Below, piece after piece: positions 35,001-49,544 of a stretch of 64,000 bases of DNA (position 1 is the first letter of the stretch; each line of letters begins with the position of its first letter). A program made the translations under genes and the position numbers. The notes beneath the pieces are model-generated. The model did no database searches. It was not told the DNA's origin and worked only from the letters and a program-made list of their open reading frames with translations. The DNA is from Lepraria neglecta (Eukaryota > Ascomycota > Lecanoromycetes > Lecanorales > Stereocaulaceae): assembly GCA_033220425.1 (NCBI GenBank), contig CM065648.1, positions 4,588,001 through 4,652,000 on the forward strand. Direction: 5' to 3'.

Positions 35001-37821
35001 ATGTCTTCAGGTTTGTATACCTCATACCTTACATAGACATATATACGGACACTAAAATTGTTAATAGTTAACCGGCACCATTATCAGCCATCAATCACCC
35101 GAATACCCTCATTGCTTTGCCTTCTCCTCGCAACCCTGGGCCTCATAGCGTTCGTGGAATACGCATGTCGACACCTGCCCGCGCGCAATGCAAATGGCAT
35201 CGTTGCAACCTTGCAGAAAAAAGCATCGGCAGATGTCAGTGCTATCATAGAGGCTAGGCTTGTCAGAAGGCAAAATGGTACTGGAGTAACAGCACCGCCA
35301 CCAGGCAACTTTCTTCCCGTTGATGGAGCAGATGCCGCATCAAGCCCTAACCCACCAGATTTCCTACCTGTAGCCGCTACAACGTCAATCACTTTGGCCG
35401 CCAATCCATCGGATTTCCTACCTGTAGCCGCTGCAACGTCAACCACTTTGGCCCCCAATCCATCGGATTTCCTACCTGTAGCTGCTGCAACGTCAACCAC
35501 TTTGGCCCCCACTCCATCGGATTTCCTACCTGTAGCCGCTGCAACGTCAACCACTTTGGCCCCAAATCCATCGGATTTCCTACCTGTAGCTACTGTGTCT
35601 GCCTCGCTTGCAACATCAGCCTTCATTCCCGTTGACCCCCTGACCTCAAGCTCGACCACCTCTGCACCAGCTACACCCGTCTTTCTGCCCGTCGGTGACA
35701 GTAGTAGCACAACACCTACGTATGTCCTTCTTTTCACTGTTGACCACGTCCACCTTACCCTTGCCAAAGAATTTGCGTTCTGATCTTCAATACTGATACT
35801 GCCAATCTCTATTAGTACAGTCCCTACAACGGAAATCACTGTTGGAGCTCCTGCTCCCACTAACTTTCTGCCGGTGGACAATTCGGTAACTCCTGCAACA
35901 TCTGTAGGCCCGATCACACAGGCAATCCTGCCAGGTACTTCAACTTCGTCGACAGCCAATTCGACATTTTCATCCATCACAGGCTTAGCCAATGGAGTAC
36001 CATACACTATTGGAGCTGATGGCTTGGTATTTATCGACGGAGAGATATTCAATACGGCCTCTCCCACAACTGCTACGCTATTTGATGGCCAGGAGCTCGT
36101 AGTCGGACCGACCGGAGCTGTCTCCATTCAGGACCTATCGCCTGTGGATCCTAGAAAACCTAAAATCGGCGTCACCGCTCGAGACTATGTCGTCGGCGCT
36201 TTCATTCCAACCATCCTCGCAGTTCTCTTCAGCATCCCCTGGCACCTCTTACACTCCGCCATCAAGGAGATAGAACCTTTCTATCAGCTCCACAACGCAG
36301 ACGGTGTCTCCGCCGACAACTCGCTTACGCTGGACTATAGAGCTTCTGTCAACGTTGTGGCCACCTTTACAGCCATGCGAAAGAGACATTACCTCGTATG
36401 GTGGTCCGGGATCGTATCGCTAATTATCTTGCTCCTTCCGCCTCTTGCATCGGAGACGGTGTTCATCGGGTTCGTTGGTCAAGGGAGATGTACGGCTACA
36501 TCAGGCAGAGACGCCTGCATTCCCGAACTGAGTGTATTCCCCGTCGCTGCGAGGGTGGTACAGGGAATCTTGGCATTTGTCGCACTTATGACGTTTGCAC
36601 TAGCAATTGCAGTCTTGCAGAGGAAAAGCGGCGTCTACGCTAATCCACTGAGCATCGCTGGCTTAGCTAGCCTCTTCCAGGACCAACGTCTCATCGAGGA
36701 TTTCCGTCGACTCAATCCGTATGCAACACCGAAGGAACTCCGTAACTCCCTCCGAGGTAATCGCTATCGAGTCGGAACATACAGCGAAGTCGACGGAAGC
36801 ACCTCCTACGGTTTGACTCTGGTTCATACCAATGCTCTACCCATGGAGGAACATAGCCGCACATCGTCCATGGGAGGAAAGAAGTACGCATCCGTAGCTG
36901 TGAGCGCCGTCGATGAACAATCGGCTCCTGTCCGAAAGAAGCCTAGCTCAAGCCCATGGATTCATCCAGCTATCGTTGTAGCTTTTTCGCTGTTCGTCCT
37001 CGGACTCGAAGCACTAATCATCTACTACAATCGAGTGGGCGGCGACACGGGCTTTGAGAGATTTATGGACAGTGAAGCTTTTGGTGTCAGCTTTCTGTTT
37101 ACAGCCATCGGCGTCATACTCAAAATGTATTGGCATTCCTTAGATGATGGTAAGTTATTCCCTCTCTTGCATCAGCCCTTCATCGAAGAGAAAGGACGCC
37201 TTTCTCACGCCAAATATCACAGAGATACGCACCATGGAACCATATCGGCAGCTTTTACACGGCGACGCCAAAGCCAGCGACAGCATCCTTCTAGCCCCTT
37301 GTTCAAACCCATTCACTGGCTTCTTCCACTCCATCAGCCATGGCCATTTCTTCAACGCATACACCAGCCTAGTCGCCATCCTGTGTGAACCCCTGATCGT
37401 CGCCCTAGCCAACATTCCATTCAAGCCCGGCACGGCATATCAAGCTTACATGGTCGCTACCTGGATCTCCGTTGCCGTCTTAGGCATGATGCTCGTGGGC
37501 ATCGTCTGGTTCCTATGTAGGAAGAAGACGCCAGGTATGATACGCAGACCAGACACCATCGCTGCTGTGCTTTTGTCCCTGTGTGGTAGCCATATGCTTG
37601 GTGAGTTCATGGGTATGGCTCAGATGGATAAGCGTACGAGGGATGGTATTGTTAAGAGGTGCGAGAGGAGATATGCGATGGGCCGGTCGGTTGGTGTGGA
37701 TGGCGTGGAGAGGGAGGTTGTGGATGAGGATATATTTGTTGGTCAACAAGAGCCGCCTAGGATGAGGTTTGTGACGACTCATGGTCACACTGTGTTTGGG
37801 GGTTTGTTGGCTGATACCTAA
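35001..37821 (+). CDS. DUF3433 multi-TM protein with FLPV tandem repeats
   Basis: Four exons, 35001-35010, 35068-35719, 35816-37149 and 37223-37821, encode 864 aa. The first coding exon is 10 nt (Met-Ser-Ser plus one base). A signal-anchor segment (about residues 17-37) is followed by a Ser/Thr/Pro-rich extracellular-type region carrying an 18-residue repeat. Seven further hydrophobic segments follow, including YVVGAFIPTILAVLFSIPWH and a C-terminal pair. This is the usual DUF3433 layout of Pezizomycotina; the function is unknown, presumably plasma-membrane or wall-associated. Frame and phase are consistent throughout. Confidence 0.85.
35345..35600 (+). repeat. 54-bp tandem repeat coding for NPSDFLPVAAATSTTLAP
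   Basis: About five head-to-tail 54-bp units inside the DUF3433 gene. The middle three are nearly identical in DNA, and the outer two are diverged (TTSIT, TVSAS variants). The period is a multiple of three, so unit gain or loss keeps the frame. The FLPV tetrapeptide also recurs outside the array. Confidence 0.9.
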
Positions 37822-40381: not shown

Positions 40382-41640
40382 ATGCACAGAATTGCCAACA
40401 ATCTTCGCCTCTATGGTCGTCATACGCGGCCGAACTGCTTCCCAGCTGGATGGCCGACCAGTTCCTCGCAATATCGACGTTACAGCACCCCTCCCATACT
40501 AAACCGATCGGACGATGTTACCAACGTGAGGGTGAAGACTGGCACTACCGGCTATGTATCCTTGACGTATATTCTCGCTGCCAGAAGTCCTCCTTGAGTT
40601 GTAAGCTAACGTCTGCTCCAGCATCCGCCACGCCTCACGTCCAGAAACCGCCAATCCTATCATCATTTACCTCAAACGTGGAATGCCCACATCCTACGGC
40701 TCTAGTATCGCCGAAAACATCTACAACCTCGCCACGAGCGCGAACGCAACTGTCGTCTACGTGGAGTACAGGCTTTCAAGAGCTTTCCCTTACCCTGTTC
40801 CGATCCATACTGTCGGTGAGCCTTGAACTCGCGACATAAGCACTTATGGCTGACGAACAATTCCAGGTTGTTCGCGCATACGACTGGGTGCAGGAGAACC
40901 TTGCTGGCAGTACAGCCAAGGCACATGATCAAATAGCACCCTCCAGGATTGGCGTATGCGGTGAACTGGTTGGAGGAAGCCTAGCCGGTATGCTGGCTTT
41001 GACGGAATGCCACAGTGCATCCCTAGGGATCAGTGCTGCGGCTCTTGGAAACCCAATCATTGATTGGACTGCGTTACATTCATCAGGAACAAGGCCGGAG
41101 TCGGAGATAACGGGTCGAATGAAGGTCACCAAAAAGAATCAAAAGTCCTTGGAGAAGAACCTATTGGCCATCGACTCTCTGGTGACATTACGGGAGGAGT
41201 ACTTCCCAAAAGCGGAAAAATACCACGATCCCTTCACCAGCCCTCTTCTCTTCTTCCGTACCCCGAGTTCCGAACTACCACTCGAACATACACCTCCTCA
41301 GCCCTCCGACGGCGACTCGAATCCAGAAAATGCAGTCCTAGAGCCTACCAAAACCCGTCGGTTTCTTCGCAAGTATCCACCCACATATTCGGACCTCATA
41401 CTTCCGCATATGAGAGTCAACGTGGGCAAAGAGAGCGTGCTTAGAGATCAAGGAATCGAGCTGGTTGATCTTATGCGCAGGAGCTTTGGTCGTTGGGAAG
41501 TAGATCGGTTTACACATCTGGGGAAGGACTATCCTCAGCGAGGATTTGAAGCTGTGGATAGGGAAGGACTCGGGTTGTGGGATGAGGAGGAGATACTGGA
41601 GATTGGTCATTGGTTTGGAGATGTTTTACGGAAGCCCTGA
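40382..41640 (+). CDS. Alpha/beta-hydrolase-fold protein, probably non-catalytic
   Basis: Three exons, 40382-40566, 40622-40811 and 40867-41640, encode about 382 aa. The fold is shown by NPIIIYLKRG, then TVVYVEYRLSRAFPYPVPIH, VVRAYDWVQENL and RIGVCGELVGGSLAGMLALT. The usual HGGG is replaced by LKRGMP, and the nucleophile elbow reads GELVG, with Leu where Ser is expected. The second intron needs a weak GTCGGT donor to keep frame; a nearby GTGAGC donor would shift it. The N terminus is basic and may be a targeting peptide. Confidence 0.65.
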
Positions 41641-41816
41641 TTGAAGCAAACATCGATGGACAGACCTCAAGATTGATGATGGCTCTCTTGGGGCAGTCTG
41701 GACAGAAGAGATCACTTCGTTTATCAAGAGCCCCAGATAATTGACTGCATACGTCACTTCAAGAAGTCGAAGTTGGTTGAACAGGCTACAGGAGCAAAAG
41801 TAAAAACAACGAATAT

Positions 41817-41900
41817 CGCGAGCTGGGAGATTCGAACTTCCCGATGCCTTTCGATACTGCAGCATTAAGTACAGCGCCTTAACCACTCGGCCAAGCCCAC
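41817..41900 (-). tRNA. tRNA-Leu(UAA)-like gene, possibly a pseudogene
   Basis: Read on the minus strand it has a 7-bp acceptor (two G-U pairs), the D-arm TGGCCGAGTGGTTAAGGC, a long variable arm and the T-arm GTTCGAATC. Its 84-nt length fits a class II tRNA. The anticodon region contains CTTAAT (UAA, Leu), but the stem CTGTA/TGCAG leaves an 8-nt loop instead of 7, and the T-stem has one mismatch. This suggests decay. Confidence 0.5.
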
Positions 41901-42124
41901 TGTTTCTCAGGTTGGTGTTATCTGGCTTATGAGTAAGGCAATATTAGAACAGTTCGAAGGCTTGGCACATATTTCACATGGACCTTGAAACAACGACCCG
42001 AGAACTTGGCAGCTAAGGAGGTCTGTCCTCTCGCATGGCACTCGCAAGAGATTGAGGATGCCATGGGTGCAAATTTAAGCAGATAACGAGCTAGTATGTC
42101 TCCTCGAGCAAAAAAATTGGACAT

Positions 42125-42205
42125 TGTGAGTTGTCAGATTCGAACTGACGCATCAGAAGATACTGGATCCCGAAACCAGCGCCTTTGACACTTGGTCAAG
42201 CTTGC
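42125..42205 (-). pseudogene. Decayed tRNA-Leu-like sequence
   Basis: Shares GGCGCTG, CAGTATC and GATGC blocks with the copy at 41817-41900 and keeps a perfect 5-bp T-stem around TTCGAAT. The acceptor pairs at only 4 of 7 positions. The D-arm carries G-to-A changes (TGACCAAGTG instead of TGGCCGAGTG), and the anticodon loop TTCGGGA fits no class II tRNA. Confidence 0.45.
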
Positions 42206-42347
42206 TTTTTTGCTTGGATTGATTTCTTTCTTTCTATGACTCATGGGTGAAGAAATCATTGAAGCCCTGGCATTCCCTTGAACCACCAATCCACCAATAA
42301 CAGCCAACGGTTAAATTCAAGTCTTCGCCTCTAATTCCTCTGACTGC

Positions 42348-42774
42348 CTAGAGCTCTATGGACCGTGTTCGAACGATGGTGGCCCTGATTCTCTCAATAT
42401 CGCCCGGGTGTGACCTGTATACTGAACTCATCGCATAGAGTCTCCTAGCTTCCTGATTAGCAATCGTCGAGCCTCGTCTTGAAAAATTTCCGACAAACTC
42501 ACCACAACGTCCAACCATTCTGAACCTGGAATGGCGGATGAGACAACATCCCCGCGATATCTCCGATCAGGTGATCAACGACAAAGTCTCCGTCGGAAGT
42601 AATGGAATAACTGTAGGTGTGAAGGAGGTGATGTGTGGGTGGGATAGCGACGATGTGACGGTCAGAAAGGGGAAGACCGTCGTGGCTGGGGTTGGCGGGG
42701 TGGCTGCGTGTCCAGGGGCGAATCGACAATCTGTCGTAGCGACGCCGTTCGAGGAGCAGGATTCTGGCTTCCAT
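42348..42774 (-). CDS. Array gene copy H (intact), unknown family
   Basis: Exons 42774-42503 and 42444-42348 encode 122 aa. It starts MEARILLLERR, has SDRHIVAIPP at the SDAQI position, and ends exon 1 with NGWTLW. The intron splits the last Trp codon (TG|G), and exon 2 encodes RLYAMSSVYRS...ATIVRTRS. It has a canonical GTGAGT donor and TAG acceptor, and no lesions. No signal peptide, TM segment or known domain. It is the most downstream copy of the array. Confidence 0.7.
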
Positions 42775-43164
42775 GTTTGGATGCTTCTGGAGGTGAGATG
42801 GTGGTAGAGAACGTATGCTAATCAGAGAAGAAGAGCGGAGCATACTTTATTGTCAAGAGGGACAAAAAGACGGCAGCAGTAGGGCATGTGCATCAACGGA
42901 TCATACGAGGAGTGGCTGAGTGCATCTAACAAAGGAGCCAGAAGATAATATGGTGGCAGCATCTGCATGCTCCGCATGATATTTGCTGGAAGACTACATC
43001 ACTGAGGAAAAATTTCTCGGAGTATGCTCGCCACCTCATCTCTGCTCATGTTCGCGTCTTTGCACAGAAGTCCATGGATTACGCTCGCGTTCTCTTAGAT
43101 GTTCAGTTGTGTTGCTTTGCCCTTCGGGTCTGCCTTTGCGGATTTGCCTTTCGCGTTTGTCTCC

Positions 43165-43632
43165 TTAGGCTTGCCCTTCCCACGCAGGATTTCGATATCG
43201 AATAGCGATGACCATGACCTTTTCACGGTATTTACTCCTGTCGCGCTCAATCATTCCGACCTCTTCCAAGCGCCTCAATGGAAAATGAACTCATGGCAAT
43301 CGCGAAGGGGTTCATGAGAGAGCTTACCACTCTGACCAGAAATCATCGTCAGCGCGGGATGGATTTTCGTTTCCCAGAAATCCAGTCAAGTAGTCTATGA
43401 GGCCATCCCTTCTTGCTCCTGTGGAGTCGGCATGGTTATAGATTGCGGGAGACGTCCTTGTACCGGACACTAAAGCAGGATCCCATTGGAGGAGGGGAAT
43501 TGGTGTTGGTGGGAGTTGACGTTCCGATATCCCGATGCCCAATGAACCAGGCCCACTCAGGACTTTCCAGTCATAACTTGAGTCCTTCTCGGGTTGATAA
43601 CGCCCTCCGAGGCGTAGGAGCCTTCTATCCAT
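43165..43632 (-). CDS. Array gene copy A (intact), unknown family
   Basis: Exons 43632-43328 and 43273-43165 encode 137 aa (MDRRLLRLGGRY...DDFWSEW | RLEEVGMIERDRSKYREKVM, ending VIAIRYRNPAWEGQA). An upstream in-frame ATG at 43644 would add four residues; 43632 is chosen because it aligns with MEGRLLRL in the paralogs. The 54-nt GT-AG intron splits the Trp codon in phase 2 as in the other copies. No known domain. Confidence 0.7.
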
Positions 43633-44303
43633 GATCTGAGCCATCGCGAATATGTTGTAGATGAACGCTTCTGATAGTCAAGTGAGAAACTTGAAAACCT
43701 TGCCTTTTATATCTGATCTTACTGGGCATCAGCAGTTACTTATCATTCATTTTCTTGCAAGGCAATTTACCTATGTTCGGGTAGATGGCTCATGGGTGAC
43801 AGTACATCCCGGGAAGAGCATTTCAACATTGACAAATCTCAACTCAAACATCTCATTAATTTCTGCGTTACCGGCTTCCTCTGATCAGAAACACGGAGCT
43901 CTCCGAGTCCAAAGCATGAGTGCGAACCATACGTACCTTGAGCGATGAGTTTTGATCTAGAGAGAACATTAGCTTGCAGAGCTCCATTCTGGCTTTTTGT
44001 GTCACACGAAAATATGTCTCAATATCTAAAACGCTACCAGAAAGGAAAGGGAAGACAGCAGCCGCGTGAGTGCATGAATTCATTACACTGTGACTAATTA
44101 AATGCTAAAGAGCACATTCTAGGTGCTAGTAGGATTGCAAGAATTTGCGGTGACATCAATGCATGTTCATGCTCCATGGCCCTTAAGCTTGGTTACTGGA
44201 CATGGAATGTGATCCAAGCATTTCGAACCATGTGATTCAACACTCGGATTATTTCCCCTTAATTCTCGTTTGGTTCCCTACGCTCAGGATATAGTCCAGA
44301 GCT
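43633..44303. other. Spacer between array copies A and B
   Basis: About 670 bp upstream of copy A and downstream of copy B. No further copy or other ORF is supported here. Confidence 0.4.
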
Positions 44304-44689
44304 CTAGAGGTATCTAATAACCAGGACAGGAACCGTCTCGATACCGTCGCCATCTGTGTCTTCGATCTTCCCAACCGAGTAGATGACCCTAGACATGGTA
44401 CCTACATTAGCCTAGAAAGCATGCTGCTAAGACGCAAAGGTACCTACCACTCCTTCCACTTTCTAGTATGATCCTGGAATCTTCCCTCGCGTACGACTGC
44501 GTTCACAAAGTCCACTACGGATTTGTCAGACTGGGCAAGAGATTTTGGTAGGTTTGACATGATCTCGGCGTGTTCGGAGCTGGGGGCTTCGTATCAAAGG
44601 GTTGCTGGGTGGTGGGATATACGCCATGAATTCAATGACTTGTTGTCGTACAAGTTGTTCCGCTCAAGGATGAGGAGTTGTCCGTCCAT
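44304..44689 (-). pseudogene. Array gene copy B, single nonsense mutation
   Basis: Exons 44689-44448 and 44388-44304. It starts MDGQLLILERNN (ATG 44695 is also in frame) with WRISHHPATL. The next codon is TGA, where paralogs have the Gly of SLG (GGN). The frame stays open afterwards (YEAPSSEHAEIMSN to KWKEW) and joins exon 2 (VIYSVGKIEDTDGDGIETVP, ending VLVIRYL) through a GTAGGT donor. One substitution is the only lesion. Confidence 0.7.
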
Positions 44690-44877
44690 TTCCATCTTTA
44701 AGGATGCTGAGGGTGGTTAGCCAGTCACGAGCGAAGATGTTGACGAAGCTAAGTACTTTGACTGGGGTCAGAGGGTTGTTGTGTTGATGAAAGTGATCTT
44801 TGTGTTTGATGAGAGTGAGATTTGGAGATGTGCTGGAGAGGAGAAAGAAAGATGGAGGATGGATGCTGGAAATTTCC

Positions 44878-45325
44878 CTAGGACTGGCGGTATCTCACGA
44901 TGATGACTATGACTGTCACAAGCCATTCGCTATCGATCTTGTCACCCTCGATAAAGCCAATCTCTCCGATAGCATGCAAGCGCCTGAACATCGTAATCAG
45001 CACTCACCCAATGACGATCCCATGAATTGACAACCATGGTGTACACTCGCTTGGCGACCCCCCGAAATGGGCACAATACCGGTTATGGATTAATTTGCAA
45101 GGGTACATACCAATCAGTCCAAGTACCACCATCATCCTTGAAGCAAGCATCTGCCAGGAGCTGAGTGAGGAAGGTCATGAGAGAGTCCGGCGTCGTATCG
45201 TGATCGAGTAGGGACTTTGGGTTCTTGGGAATCTGAGCCTCAGATACAGCGACCCCTTTGAGATCGTTTGTGACGCGCCATTCGTGATCGACTCCGCGCT
45301 CGAGGCGGAGGAGTCGTCCTTCCAT
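44878..45325 (-). CDS. Array gene copy C (intact), unknown family
   Basis: Exons 45325-45111 and 44983-44878 encode 106 aa: MEGRLLRLERG, WRVTNDLKG, SEAQIPKNPKSLL, TFLTQLLADACF, GGTWTDW | RLHAIGEIGFIEGDKIDSEW, ending VIVIIVRYRQS. This is the cleanest family representative. The intron (127 nt) is about twice as long as in the other copies. No known domain, signal peptide or TM segment; probably cytosolic. Confidence 0.72.
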
Positions 45326-45439
45326 GGCGAAGGGGATTGGATCGATGTTGGAAGGAGTGTAGATTGGTGATGGTGATGGTAGGAGTGTAGACTCGCATGC
45401 AATCCGACAGCTCTTGGTACCTTCTAGCCTGCAAATTTC

Positions 45440-46101
45440 AATACCTGAAGTGCACGTATCTTGAGACCCCAGCAGTTGCACCTCGCCGAGCGTATGGATC
45501 AGCTCCTCGACGAGTACCTCGACTAGCACCTATGAGACCGTCTCGACGAGTAACTGTATAGGCAATTGTATTGGCACGTGTGATTGTGCTAGCATCAGCA
45601 CCGTTGCCGGCATCAGCGCCTACACCACCAGCTTTACCAGCACCAGTACGAGCATCAGCATCTGTCTGCTCTGCTTCATTGCCTTGTTAATGCGTTACTT
45701 GCCCTCTGCGGTACCTCACAATAATAACCCTCGCTCTCGCGGTCCACCGAGTACCACCGCCCTCCTCCGTATAACGATCAACATCTCCAACAGCATGCAG
45801 ACGCCTAGTCAGGTTGTCAGCAGCCATAGGTTTAGTCAATATCAAAGTTGACATACCATACTGTCCAAGTATGGCTGCCTTTGAAGTCGTGATCTGCCAT
45901 CACATTCTCGACGAATCCGATGAGAGACTCGCTTCTATCTCTTGTAGCCATATCGCCGTGAGATTATAGCAGAGATGGTGGGTTGGTTAGGATCTGGCCT
46001 TAGGAAAGAGGAACGCCAAGGGTCTCGAGACCGTTCGTGACATGCCATCGTCTCGCCGGTCCGAAGGATTTGCGTTGGATTCGTAGGAGTCATCCCTCCA
46101 T
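45440..46101 (-). pseudogene. Array gene copy D, multiple nonsense codons
   Basis: Exons 46101-45857 and 45804-45687. It reads MEG, a stop (TGA for the Arg CGA of MEGRLL), then LLRIQRKSFG...WHVTNGLETLGVPLS, a second stop, GQILTNPPSLL, a third stop, and SLIGFVENVMADHDFKGSHT WTVW. Exon 2 is intact (RLHAVGDVDRYTEEGGGTRW, VIIVRYRRGQVTH). After its TAA the same frame stays open about 80 more codons of Gly/Ala/Arg-rich sequence (GADAGNGADA, RRGADPYARRGATAG), so the stop may itself be a mutation. Confidence 0.7.
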
Positions 46102-46619
46102 TGTTGAGAGTGTGTGTTCGGTGATAGGTGTTAAACTTGATCGATGTCTTTTGTTTTGAGAATTGCTGCTGATTTGAAGGAGACTTTGTCTGTGCTCGCT
46201 GGAATATCACCTTTTGTACCTGTTTATTGTGGACGGAAGAGTTATGGCAACAAAGGTATAGTAAGGGATCTTGTGACCTGTTGTGCTACTAGAGGAAGGA
46301 CCAATATTAGTAAAGATAGCTAATACATGAAGTGGCAAGAATGCTTACACGGTCCTTTCTGCACGAGCTTCCTCGCACGATTATCTATTGGCAATACAGT
46401 ACGCCGGGAGATCTTGAGACCTTTCGTGCTACAAGGACAGAAAGCTAGGGTAGCAAAGGAGAAAAAGTACTGATTAGCTATTCCACCATCTAGTATTCAA
46501 CAAGCCCCTCGTAAGCAAATCAAACTGCACGACCGGCAAAGGACCTTCAAGCACGCAACATTCAGAACAAAACCACCACCAAACTTGTCTATCCCCCTCG
46601 TCCCCTCGCCCTTAAGCAC

Positions 46620-47020
46620 CTAGGTCTCGCGGTACCTCACGATGATAAATGACAATTTGCATCCCAGTGCCTTCGGTATCTTTCATGCCTTCGATATCCT
46701 CAACGGCATGCAGACGTCTGTAGTGGGTCAGATTCAGTAGCTAGAGGATTGAGAGTACGTACCGTGCAGTCCAAACATCCTCAGCTTCAAATCTCTCGTC
46801 CGCCAGAATATGGGACACTTCCTGTATGAGCGTATCTTCTTGCTCTCTTAGGCTGCTGGAGCCCTCAAGTTCGACAGGAGACTTTGGTATTTTGGAGATT
46901 TGAGCGTCAGATAGAACCGACGCCTAGACTCTCGAGATTGTTTGTGATGCGCCATGATTTGTCAGCTGTCTCGTCATACTCGTTACAGAAGCGTTCGAGG
47001 TACAGGAGGCGTCCTTCCAT
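46620..47020 (-). pseudogene. Array gene copy E, two single-base insertions
   Basis: Exons 47020-46763 and 46717-46620. MEGRLLYLERFCNEYDETAD, WRITNNLESLGVG is followed by an extra T that breaks the frame. Removing it restores LSDAQISKIPKSPVELEGSS and LIQEVSHILADERFEAEDVW. In exon 2 (RLHAVEDIEGMKDTEGTGMQ) another extra T precedes IIVRYRET and the stop. Both exon lengths exceed the family phase by exactly one base, supporting two independent insertions. Confidence 0.7.
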
Positions 47021-47410
47021 TGTTGAAGGTACTTGGGCAAGGCTTGGAAATTCCATGTTGATGTTGGAAAATGGGTAGGATTGATGAGAGTGGTTTTTTG
47101 TGATTTGGTGATGTGAAGGAAGTATCGTTCATCTTGACCGGAACAAGTCTTCAAGTACCCTACAGCTGCTTTAGTATCACAGAGTCTTGTTAGCGAAATA
47201 CACTGCTGTATTACGAGTGGTACAGGATGATGAACCGAAGGCGGAAGAGTGTACCTAAGCTTATGCATGATTCGGTAAGAGCACTAAGTAACCATCCAGT
47301 CATCAAGCAATCCTCCACCAATTGTACAATTATCACTACCTCCTGACCCGCAAATAGACATCAAGCATACATGCAGAATTCATATAAGAATACGCCACCA
47401 CCATACCACT

Positions 47411-47817
47411 CTATCTCTTGGCCCTGACCTTATTGCGGTACCTCACAATGGTGACATCGGCTCCCTCCATCCAACCGAAATACGGTGATGGCCATCATCT
47501 CTGACCCGATGTACTTGCCTAGTGGGCTACTCTCAGCATTATCAACAATCACGACTAAGTTGGGTGAAGACGTATCAGTCCGTCCAAACCCCCTGGCCCA
47601 GTGTACCCTTGAATTCAACACCCGCCATGAGAGTCCCAAGGTATTCAACAACAGACTTCCGATGGGGTCCTTTGGATCTGTTGAAATAGGAATCGAGTAG
47701 GGTCGGTGGATCGGCAGATAACCATGGATCAGGATGGGAGATTTGTTCCGGGGAGTCATAACTATCTGCGACGCCCCATTTGTTGAATCCGTAGTAGGGT
47801 CTGAGTATGATAGTCAA
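47411..47817 (-). pseudogene. Array gene copy F, start, splice donor and frame lost
   Basis: The recognisable body is YYGFNKWGVADSYDSPEQIS...SVVEYLGTLMAGVEFKGTLG, then VWTD at the exon end. No ATG remains; the first codons abut the stop of copy G with no promoter between. The donor reads TG|ATACGT where paralogs have TG|GTNNGT (G to A). In exon 2 the frame must shift to recover the terminal DVTIVRYRNKV. Confidence 0.6.
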
Positions 47818-47820
47818 GCG

Positions 47821-48293
47821 TTATGCTTCAATTTCCGCAGTGGTACCTTGACTATCGTCATAGCCAGTGCCCGATCTCACAATGAGGACCTTGGCCCATT
47901 TGCCGTACTTGCAGGGATCACCTGCATAGTCATGGAGGCCGAGCATCTCAAGATTTATAGCACGCACACGCCTGTCGAACCAATTTCAGCGGCAGCCTAG
48001 TTGCCATGAAGTCTTGTTCACGGCTGGGGTGCATAACATTCTGTCCAGCCATCCTCGCTAGCATGTTCGGCGAGGATATTTGACACATAGTCTATGCATT
48101 CATGCCTCCTGATTCTCCACCAGTCGTCGGGGTAAGCGACTTCCTTGGTCAGTGGATACGCTTTCGCACCTTGGGAGATCTGGGCGTCAGATAGACGGAA
48201 GCCAAGGCTCGAGGGATTGTTTGTGATACGCCATGGAGTAGGGTTGGCTTTCTCGTCGAGGTCACGGACAAGGCAGAGGAGCCTTCCTTCCAT
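47821..48293 (-). pseudogene. Array gene copy G, defective splice donor
   Basis: Exons 48293-48037 and 47971-47821 would encode 135 aa: MEGRLLCLVRDLDEKANPTP, WRITNNPSSLGFRLSDAQIS, YVSNILAEHASEDGWTE(W) | RVRAINLEMLGLHDYAGDPC, VLIVRSGTG. The donor position reads TG|TTATGC instead of TG|GT. The only nearby GT shifts the frame into stops. Read through, the ORF ends after WTECYAPQP (91 aa), which might still be made. Confidence 0.6.
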
Positions 48294-49403
48294 GACTGGA
48301 TATAGTTGATTGTTGATACTTGCGAATGGATAGATATGATAGGGATTGTGTTTTCGAATTTGCCACAGAGATGAAGGAAAGATGGTTCATTATGGGCAAC
48401 ATCTTGCTTAAGTACCCTTTTCTAGGTATGAGAGACTCTGCTGAAGCCACGGTGCTTCATACGCACGAAATGGCAAAAAGCGAAGCTATCAACACACCAA
48501 ATTTCCGAACTTTGAACCACACTGATAGGGAAACTCGTATTGACAATCTGAAACATCTTAAGAAAGATATCGCAATTTACCCTCTTTCAATTAAAGGTTA
48601 TTTGAAGCTCTCACTCCTGTTCGGGGTACTCGTTGCAAGAAACTCACCCTGGTCACAAATTGACAATGTGCGAAGCTGAAAGACATGGAAACCCTTGACA
48701 GATCAAGTGCTTCACCATAGCTCAACGATGACGACCTTCGACGTCCGTCCTATTCATCATAGAAAGGCTTCATCATCGCACAACGATGAGTGTTAAATTG
48801 TTCAATGTCTTGGCGCTCTTGGCAGATAGAGGCGCTAAAGAGATCTACCCGTCAGCCTAATCCTGAAATAGTAAAGCTTAGCAAAGCTTGGACGCTCGCC
48901 TAGCCCCGCGTCGCCGTGCCAGCCATGCCACCAAAAAGTTGCATGGCTGGGAACCAATCTGCATGAAGTACAAGAATGGTGAGCTGTCGTTCTCAGTCTT
49001 ACCTTCTTCTCTCCTACATATCGTCGAGTGTACTATCCATCTCTTGCAATTGCGAAAAGTGACGATCTTGCATCTTGACCGTGATCCCCTTCGACTTCTA
49101 TTTACTCTTTCCAACATCAACCTACTTGCCGTCTATATATACATTGAAGCCTCTACATACCTCCCTGAGCTTTACTGCCGTTCGCATACATACTTCAAGC
49201 AACATAAAGAACTACAGCGACACACCATACCCTATTGGAGCACACTCTGAATCAACCTACCTACCGACCTACCACCCCGATTATATATAAACACCTCCAA
49301 CCGCCACTTCTGCCCTCCCCTGTTACCGTACAAAGCCAAACCCACCAAACCTTCGTTGTCACTACTCCTCCACCTCCTCCTATAACCTACTACATAACCA
49401 AAA
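48294..49403. other. Intergenic region
   Basis: 1.1 kb between the array and the 46-aa membrane peptide. About 60 bp near 48356-48419 resemble the region upstream of copy E. The last 300 bp are C/T-rich, like a promoter and leader. Other ORFs here are unsupported. Confidence 0.4.
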
Positions 49404-49544
49404 ATGGTCCAACGAAACATCGTCGTCGCAATCATAATAATCGTGCTTTTCGTCATACTCACCCTAGTGGGCTTCGGCATATACTACGTGCAAAAACGTT
49501 TCTCCATGGCTGGGAGGGGGAGGCTAGTGGATGAGGAGGATTAA
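49404..49544 (+). CDS. 46-aa single-pass membrane peptide, hypothetical
   Basis: A short ORF (46 aa) with one strong hydrophobic segment, about residues 6-29 (IVVAIIIIVLFVILTLVGFG), followed by YYVQKRF and the tail GRGRLVDEED. The positive charges after the segment suggest a cytosolic C terminus. The start has a good context (ACCAAAAATGG) after a C/T-rich leader. No family was recognised. The other strand has no competing gene. Confidence 0.45.
   Translation: MVQRNIVVAIIIIVLFVILTLVGFGIYYVQKRFSMAGRGRLVDEED

Follow-up and report, generated by a model that had tools for sequence, protein, structure and literature searches.

An orphan family of small two-exon genes in a partly decayed tandem array of Lepraria neglecta

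In Neurospora crassa, lineage-specific genes gather close to the telomeres, often in clusters with HET genes (PMC10684091). Closer in sequence to the locus reported below are two hypothetical proteins of lichen fungi, HO173_001630 of Letharia columbiana (referred to as P0006) and HO133_007871 of Letharia lupina (P0007). Here we describe a small two-exon gene that is present in eight head-to-tail copies in Lepraria neglecta, as read and translated from the minus strand at positions 42348-48293 of the window (the entire 64-kb stretch of DNA that was analyzed). The eight copies belong to one family, and three of them are intact.

Positions 41500-49500 were read on the minus strand and translated, and the exon limits were determined by script for seven copies and by reading for c2. 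The copies are numbered c1 to c8 along the direction of transcription, corresponding in the same order to G, F, E, D, C, B, A and H of a preliminary description of this DNA. The array extends from the start of c1 (48293) to the stop of c8 (42348). One phase-2 intron site is common to all the copies, and the split codon is TG/G in seven of them and CG/A in c3. A GT donor is found at this site in six copies (after CG in c3), and it is lost in c1 and c2. The three intact copies are open from ATG to stop and have GT...AG introns: c5 (106 residues, with an intron of 127 base pairs, bp), c7 (141 residues, 54 bp), and c8 (122 residues, 58 bp). The other five are broken. The frame of exon 1 is open in c1, with a donor that lacks GT, while c2 has a stop codon at the junction, a lost donor, and no start that could be found in the reading. 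There is a frameshift in each of the two exons of c3, and exon 1 contains three in-frame stops in c4 and one in c6.

The arrangement of the copies, the shared codon of the intron, and the presence of intact copies beside decayed ones had been proposed in the preliminary description, and all three are borne out by the exon limits, frames and splice sites. Its common sequence pattern holds in exon 1, where the motifs are found again in proteins of relatives (P0002-P0011, see below). The ending is variable: VIIVRYR is present in c4 and c5, and the other copies have different forms, such as TIVRTR in c8 and VLVIRYL in c6.

Homology among the copies was assessed with profiles built without the tested copy, and matches in the rest of the window served as the background. 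Exon 1 was recovered for four of four copies (c1, c5, c7 and c8), with expectation values (E) of 4.2e-6 to 0.036, compared to 2.2-3.2 for the best matches outside the array. Exon 2 was recovered for c4, c5, c6 and c7 among the six tested (E 6e-8 to 0.052; best outside match 0.35-0.93), and this analysis is limited because the exon is short. The left-out exon 2 of c1 reached E 9 only and ranked behind outside matches (0.35), and that of c8 was not recovered at E<=10 in the window. Exon 2 alone is therefore weak for these two copies, which are assigned to the family by their exon 1 and by the common splice site. Exon 1 of c2 has E 9 against a four-copy profile, but E 0.003 with P0003, a protein of a relative. 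The identity of exon 1 to that of c5 is mostly 29-46% among the paralogues, with extremes of 22 and 67% on short stretches.

The exons are still recognizable by profile, while the introns and nearly all of the flanks have diverged. For the seven copies compared (c2 was left out), only two of 21 pairs (c1-c3 and c3-c5) scored above all 200 plain shuffles in the upstream 150 bp, with c3-c6 at 2/200, and none did so in the downstream 150 bp. Among the introns, one of 21 pairs had a score that was reached by at most 1/200 shuffles. In addition, the proportion of nonsynonymous differences (pN, 0.23-0.55) is below that of synonymous differences (pS, 0.39-0.80) in each of 12 selected comparisons between copies or between stretches free of stops. 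As the exons are alike and the introns and flanks are not, and as pN is below pS throughout, the array would consist of protein genes under past selection, a conclusion that is indicative only. No signature of repeat-induced point mutation was observed in the array, with TpA/ApT of 0.67 compared to 0.70 in the window and (CpA+TpG)/(ApC+GpT) of 1.26 compared to 1.29. Judged from these comparisons of sequence, the assignment of the eight copies to one homologous family is solid.

Table. Exons and exon remnants of the eight copies, with their orthologues in relatives and percent identities
Feature	Position	Strand	State or motif	Support	Orthologue
c1 exon 1	48037..48293	-	open frame, donor GT lost		P0005 (75%); P0009 and P0010 (90.6% over 53 residues)
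c1 exon 2 remnant	47821..47971	-	RVRA...VLIVRS	weak when left out, E 9	
c2 exon 1 remnant	47566..47808	-	one TGA within the match to P0003	P0003 match E 0.003; profile only E 9	
Open frame containing c2 exon 2 remnant	47414..47494	-	VTIVRYR	profile E 0.0013	
c3 exon 1	46763..47020	-	frameshift, junction CG/A	orthologue open throughout	P0002 (91-93%)
c3 exon 2	46623..46717 (3' limit approximate)	-	frameshift, RLHAVEDIE... and FIIVRYR in different frames	profile E 1.8, 0.067	
c4 exon 1	45857..46101	-	three in-frame stops	orthologue open	P0003 (84-100%)
c4 exon 2	45687..45804	-	RLHAVGDVD...VIIVRYR	profile and leave-one-out	
c5 exon 1	45111..45325	-	intact	profile and leave-one-out	P0001 (92.5%)
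c5 exon 2	44878..44983	-	intact, with stop; intron 44984-45110 (127 bp)		
c6 exon 1	44448..44695	-	one in-frame stop	script and profile	
c6 exon 2	44304..44388	-		profile and leave-one-out	P0012 (96.7%; profile E 0.42)
c7 exon 1	43328..43644	-	intact, longest variable middle		P0004 (92.5%); P0011 (71%)
c7 exon 2	43165..43273	-	intact, with stop; intron end GAG	script and profile	
c8 exon 1	42503..42774	-	intact	E 0.036 when left out	
c8 exon 2	42348..42444	-	intact, with stop; divergence in the last strand (TIVRTR)	not found when left out	P0013 (85.7%; profile E 0.58)

A search with a single protein sequence gave one match. With a 13-row profile, which already contained P0001 as a row, 13 proteins were found at E<=10 (P0001-P0013), eleven of them at E<=0.0068; a profile search for relatives had been proposed in the preliminary description. 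Ten proteins outside the query, P0002-P0011, have the exon-1 pattern MEGRLLxLxR ... WRITN ... SDAQI ... helix ... WTxW, with E values from 2.7e-21 (P0002) to 6.8e-3, and 2.2e-11 for P0006 of Letharia. A second profile, with P0001-P0004 and P0006 as rows, gave ten of the 13 proteins again and nothing new, several of them with lower E values than before; P0003, P0012 and P0013 are absent from its list. The only named relatives are those of the two Letharia species, which agrees with the lineage-specific family proposed earlier, within the limits of a word-based search. Under the same limits, seven protein queries and two patterns revealed no additional convincing copy elsewhere in the genome, which has 42.0 Mb on 11 contigs.

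P0008 is 89% identical to P0006. Each of the remaining ten proteins, apart from these two and P0007, matches a single copy of the window, so that seven of the eight copies are covered (Table); c2 has no orthologue among the 13 proteins. The assignment of P0012 and P0013 rests on identity, since their profile E values are weak. Divergence among the paralogues far exceeds that between orthologues, and on this measure the array originated before these genomes separated. The longest contig is 569,560 bp for each of P0001, P0002 and P0013, and 5,531 bp for both P0003 and P0012, and these matching values suggest that there are tandem arrays in the relatives as well.

In the relatives, the intron can be judged only from read-through residues or ends at the Trp, and from two exon-2 peptides (P0012 and P0013). 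P0001, P0002 and P0003 continue past the junction with the residues expected from read-through of the same donor here. P0004 and P0006 stop right at the Trp, as do c7 and c8 when they are read through. For this reason, the position of the intron is probably shared across the family, and a second exon is probably missing from the 76-residue protein of Letharia.

The copies are in different states among these genomes. Exon 1 is a single open frame in P0002 and P0003, where c3 and c4 are broken here, and the losses of c3 and c4 are therefore probably the younger ones. On the other hand, c1 seems to be broken in the relatives too, because P0005 changes frame and P0009 and P0010 end after 53 residues. 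The shift in P0005 lies before the junction, and the final 23 residues of this protein are 95.7% identical to a different frame of c1; the residues that it has at the junction would leave no room for GT at the same place. With three intact copies beside five broken ones, the row has been both expanding and decaying. This fits a birth-and-death turnover of an orphan family, in line with the evolution proposed in the preliminary description, to which the open exon 1 of the c3 and c4 orthologues lends support.

Two further observations concern neighboring or similar copies. Only about a dozen bases separate the end of c1 exon 2 from the c2 remnant (47760-47821, minus strand), as if a deletion had joined the two copies. 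The likeness of c1 and c3 (48171-48418 and 46891-47161, minus strand; 63% over 279 columns) extends to about 125 bp upstream of the start, and because of this extent c1-c3 may be the youngest or the best-kept duplication.

Searches of known domains found no relative of the family in Pfam, NCBIfam or the PDB, as the preliminary description had expected. Among 12 proteins scanned against Pfam, the sole hit was for P0008 (E 0.036), below the cut-off and outside the family domain. None of five proteins had a hit in NCBIfam, and there was no significant match among PDB sequences (best E 0.15, 0.6 and 0.31 in separate searches). Among the titles and abstract openings retrieved in searches of the literature, none names the family. 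By hydropathy, no signal peptide is indicated in c5, c7 and c8 (mean of -0.67 to -0.97 over the N-terminal 20 residues) and there is no membrane stretch, the overall hydropathy being low. The conserved columns of exon 1 contain no catalytic-looking His/Cys pattern. A structure prediction was another proposal of the preliminary description: the model of c5 exon 1 has strands followed by a helix, with a predicted local distance difference test score (pLDDT) of 75.8, and the model of P0006 is poor (see below). Two strand-like stretches were read by eye in exon 2. A stretch of variable length is located before the helix, and the core is conserved.

The explanation that we favor, with a probability of roughly 0.5, is a lineage-restricted family of small proteins in one old tandem array, which evolves by birth and death and encodes soluble intracellular binding proteins. 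It is likely, from the hydropathy and the model of c5, that the products of the intact copies would be soluble proteins of the cytosol, 106-141 residues long, each with one alpha/beta domain. In the predicted order, the strands and one helix of exon 1 would precede the two strand-like stretches of exon 2. Our best guess is a soluble intracellular binding protein. More tentatively, as a rather unlikely proposal, the protein would act by binding a partner, with the differences among paralogues in the variable stretch before the helix setting the specificity for the partner, and copies whose partner has gone would be lost. Possible roles would be the recognition of non-self or of symbionts, or buffering in a stress response.

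Several observations weigh against this explanation. Five of the eight copies are broken, and the family may therefore be disappearing from this species. The model of P0006 is poor (pLDDT 61.3, with no strand of >=3 residues), and the predicted fold is therefore tentative. The 12 comparisons of pN and pS share copies and omit c2 and c6, and the synonymous distance (dS) is near saturation, being infinite for c7-c8, so that they are indicative only. Moreover, no tested feature points specifically to recognition or conflict.

The last point bears on the proposal, made in the preliminary description, of a conflict or allorecognition cluster, in which the paralogues would diversify under balancing or positive selection for the self/non-self recognition of lichen fungi. 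The divergence of the tandem paralogues with their length-variable middle, the different states of the copies in relatives, and the restriction to a lineage would all agree with such a cluster, as would the frequent clustering of lineage-specific genes with HET genes in Neurospora (PMC10684091). This proposal is nevertheless unlikely and has not been supported, as pN was lower than pS in every one of the 12 comparisons made, the nearest of the scored HET matches is 61 kb away, the end of the contig is at a distance of 0.69 Mb, and the 10 neighboring open reading frames (ORFs) scanned contain no HET or NLR domain. A bolder version, in which a family (perhaps a fold) found only in lichen fungi is kept as a diversifying intracellular array for recognizing a partner, strain or invader, with copies gained and silenced in each lineage, is less probable still; if true, the array would be a candidate locus for recognition in the lichen symbiosis or for allorecognition in lichens.

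The broken copies could also mean that a formerly useful family is no longer under selection and is decaying, three copies having stayed open by luck, and the apparent loss of c1 in relatives (P0005, P0009 and P0010) would agree with this. We consider it improbable, since c5 and c7 are open with GT-AG sites and have open exon-1 orthologues at 92.5% (P0001 and P0004), and since exon 1 of the c3 and c4 orthologues is open elsewhere. Another minor possibility is that the family is a remote, unrecognized offshoot of a known fold and has a binding function in housekeeping. The OB topology has three strands, a helix and two strands, and the order of strands and helix predicted in exon 1, with the two stretches read by eye in exon 2, would be compatible with an OB-like domain. 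Finally, it is hardly credible that the likeness is due to chance or that the copies are non-coding repeats. Nothing strong speaks for this apart from the behavior of exon 2 in c8 and c1 when left out, and it is contradicted by the leave-one-out recovery, the shared intron phase, the confinement of the likeness to the exons, and the proteins outside the query, such as P0002 and P0006. The homology claimed in the preliminary description thus stands, and the family of soluble binding proteins remains our preferred explanation.

The array is located 0.69 Mb from the end of a contig of 5,327,242 bases. The nearest HET match scored is at C3:4697439, among 150 of 196 candidates scored. HET matches occur about once per 280 kb, and a distance of 61 kb is unremarkable, being about what even spacing gives. 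The 10 neighboring ORFs scanned were taken from 35 of >=150 residues in the window. Seven of them have a Pfam match at E<=0.001 (an alpha/beta hydrolase, two amidases, a 2-oxoglutarate (2OG) oxygenase, a protein kinase, and two DUF3433 proteins, of which one scores under the curated cut-off) and three have none. No transposon domain was found in these 10 ORFs either, and NLR was not searched genome-wide.

Immediately downstream of the array, the minus strand carries two successive genes resembling transfer RNA (tRNA), at 41817-41900 and 42125-42205, which are 62% alike over 172 columns including flanks. The former passes the cut-off in a focused Rfam tRNA search (35.9 bits) and is the only one found by ARAGORN, with an unclear anticodon. 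The latter falls just short (28.6, with a cut-off of 29), and neither is listed in a wider Rfam gathering search. A tandem repeat with units of 54 bp (35358-35590; 4.3 copies, 95% match) lies inside a large minus-strand ORF at 35084-36127.

The array preserves a record of turnover, in that the same copies are in different states among relatives, and it is a marked target for RNA sequencing and for tests on populations of lichen fungi. If the array were a recognition locus, which is at present a guess, it would bear on how lichen fungi distinguish partners or strains.

None of the libraries searched gives a name to the family, but orphan tandem families that undergo turnover are already known from fungi. 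P0006 and P0007 of Letharia have the same exon-1 domain as the array, with 39 and 36% identity to c5, respectively. Unlike the copies of the array, the stored Letharia proteins are without the exon-2 part. P0006 ends at WTLW, which precedes the intron in the array, as would result from read-through of the donor. The gene models of the two proteins are probably truncated or incorrect beyond the Trp. The family seems to have been largely missed by annotation, because only two hypothetical proteins were found in named genomes and one of them ends where the intron starts here. The lineage-specific clusters of Neurospora crassa are likewise made up of paralogous orphan genes, often clustered and with few or no recognized domains. 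Those clusters are subtelomeric and associated with HET genes, whereas the array of Lepraria neglecta is internal, with the nearest scored HET match 61 kb away, and the comparison is one of organization, with no homology claimed (PMC10684091).

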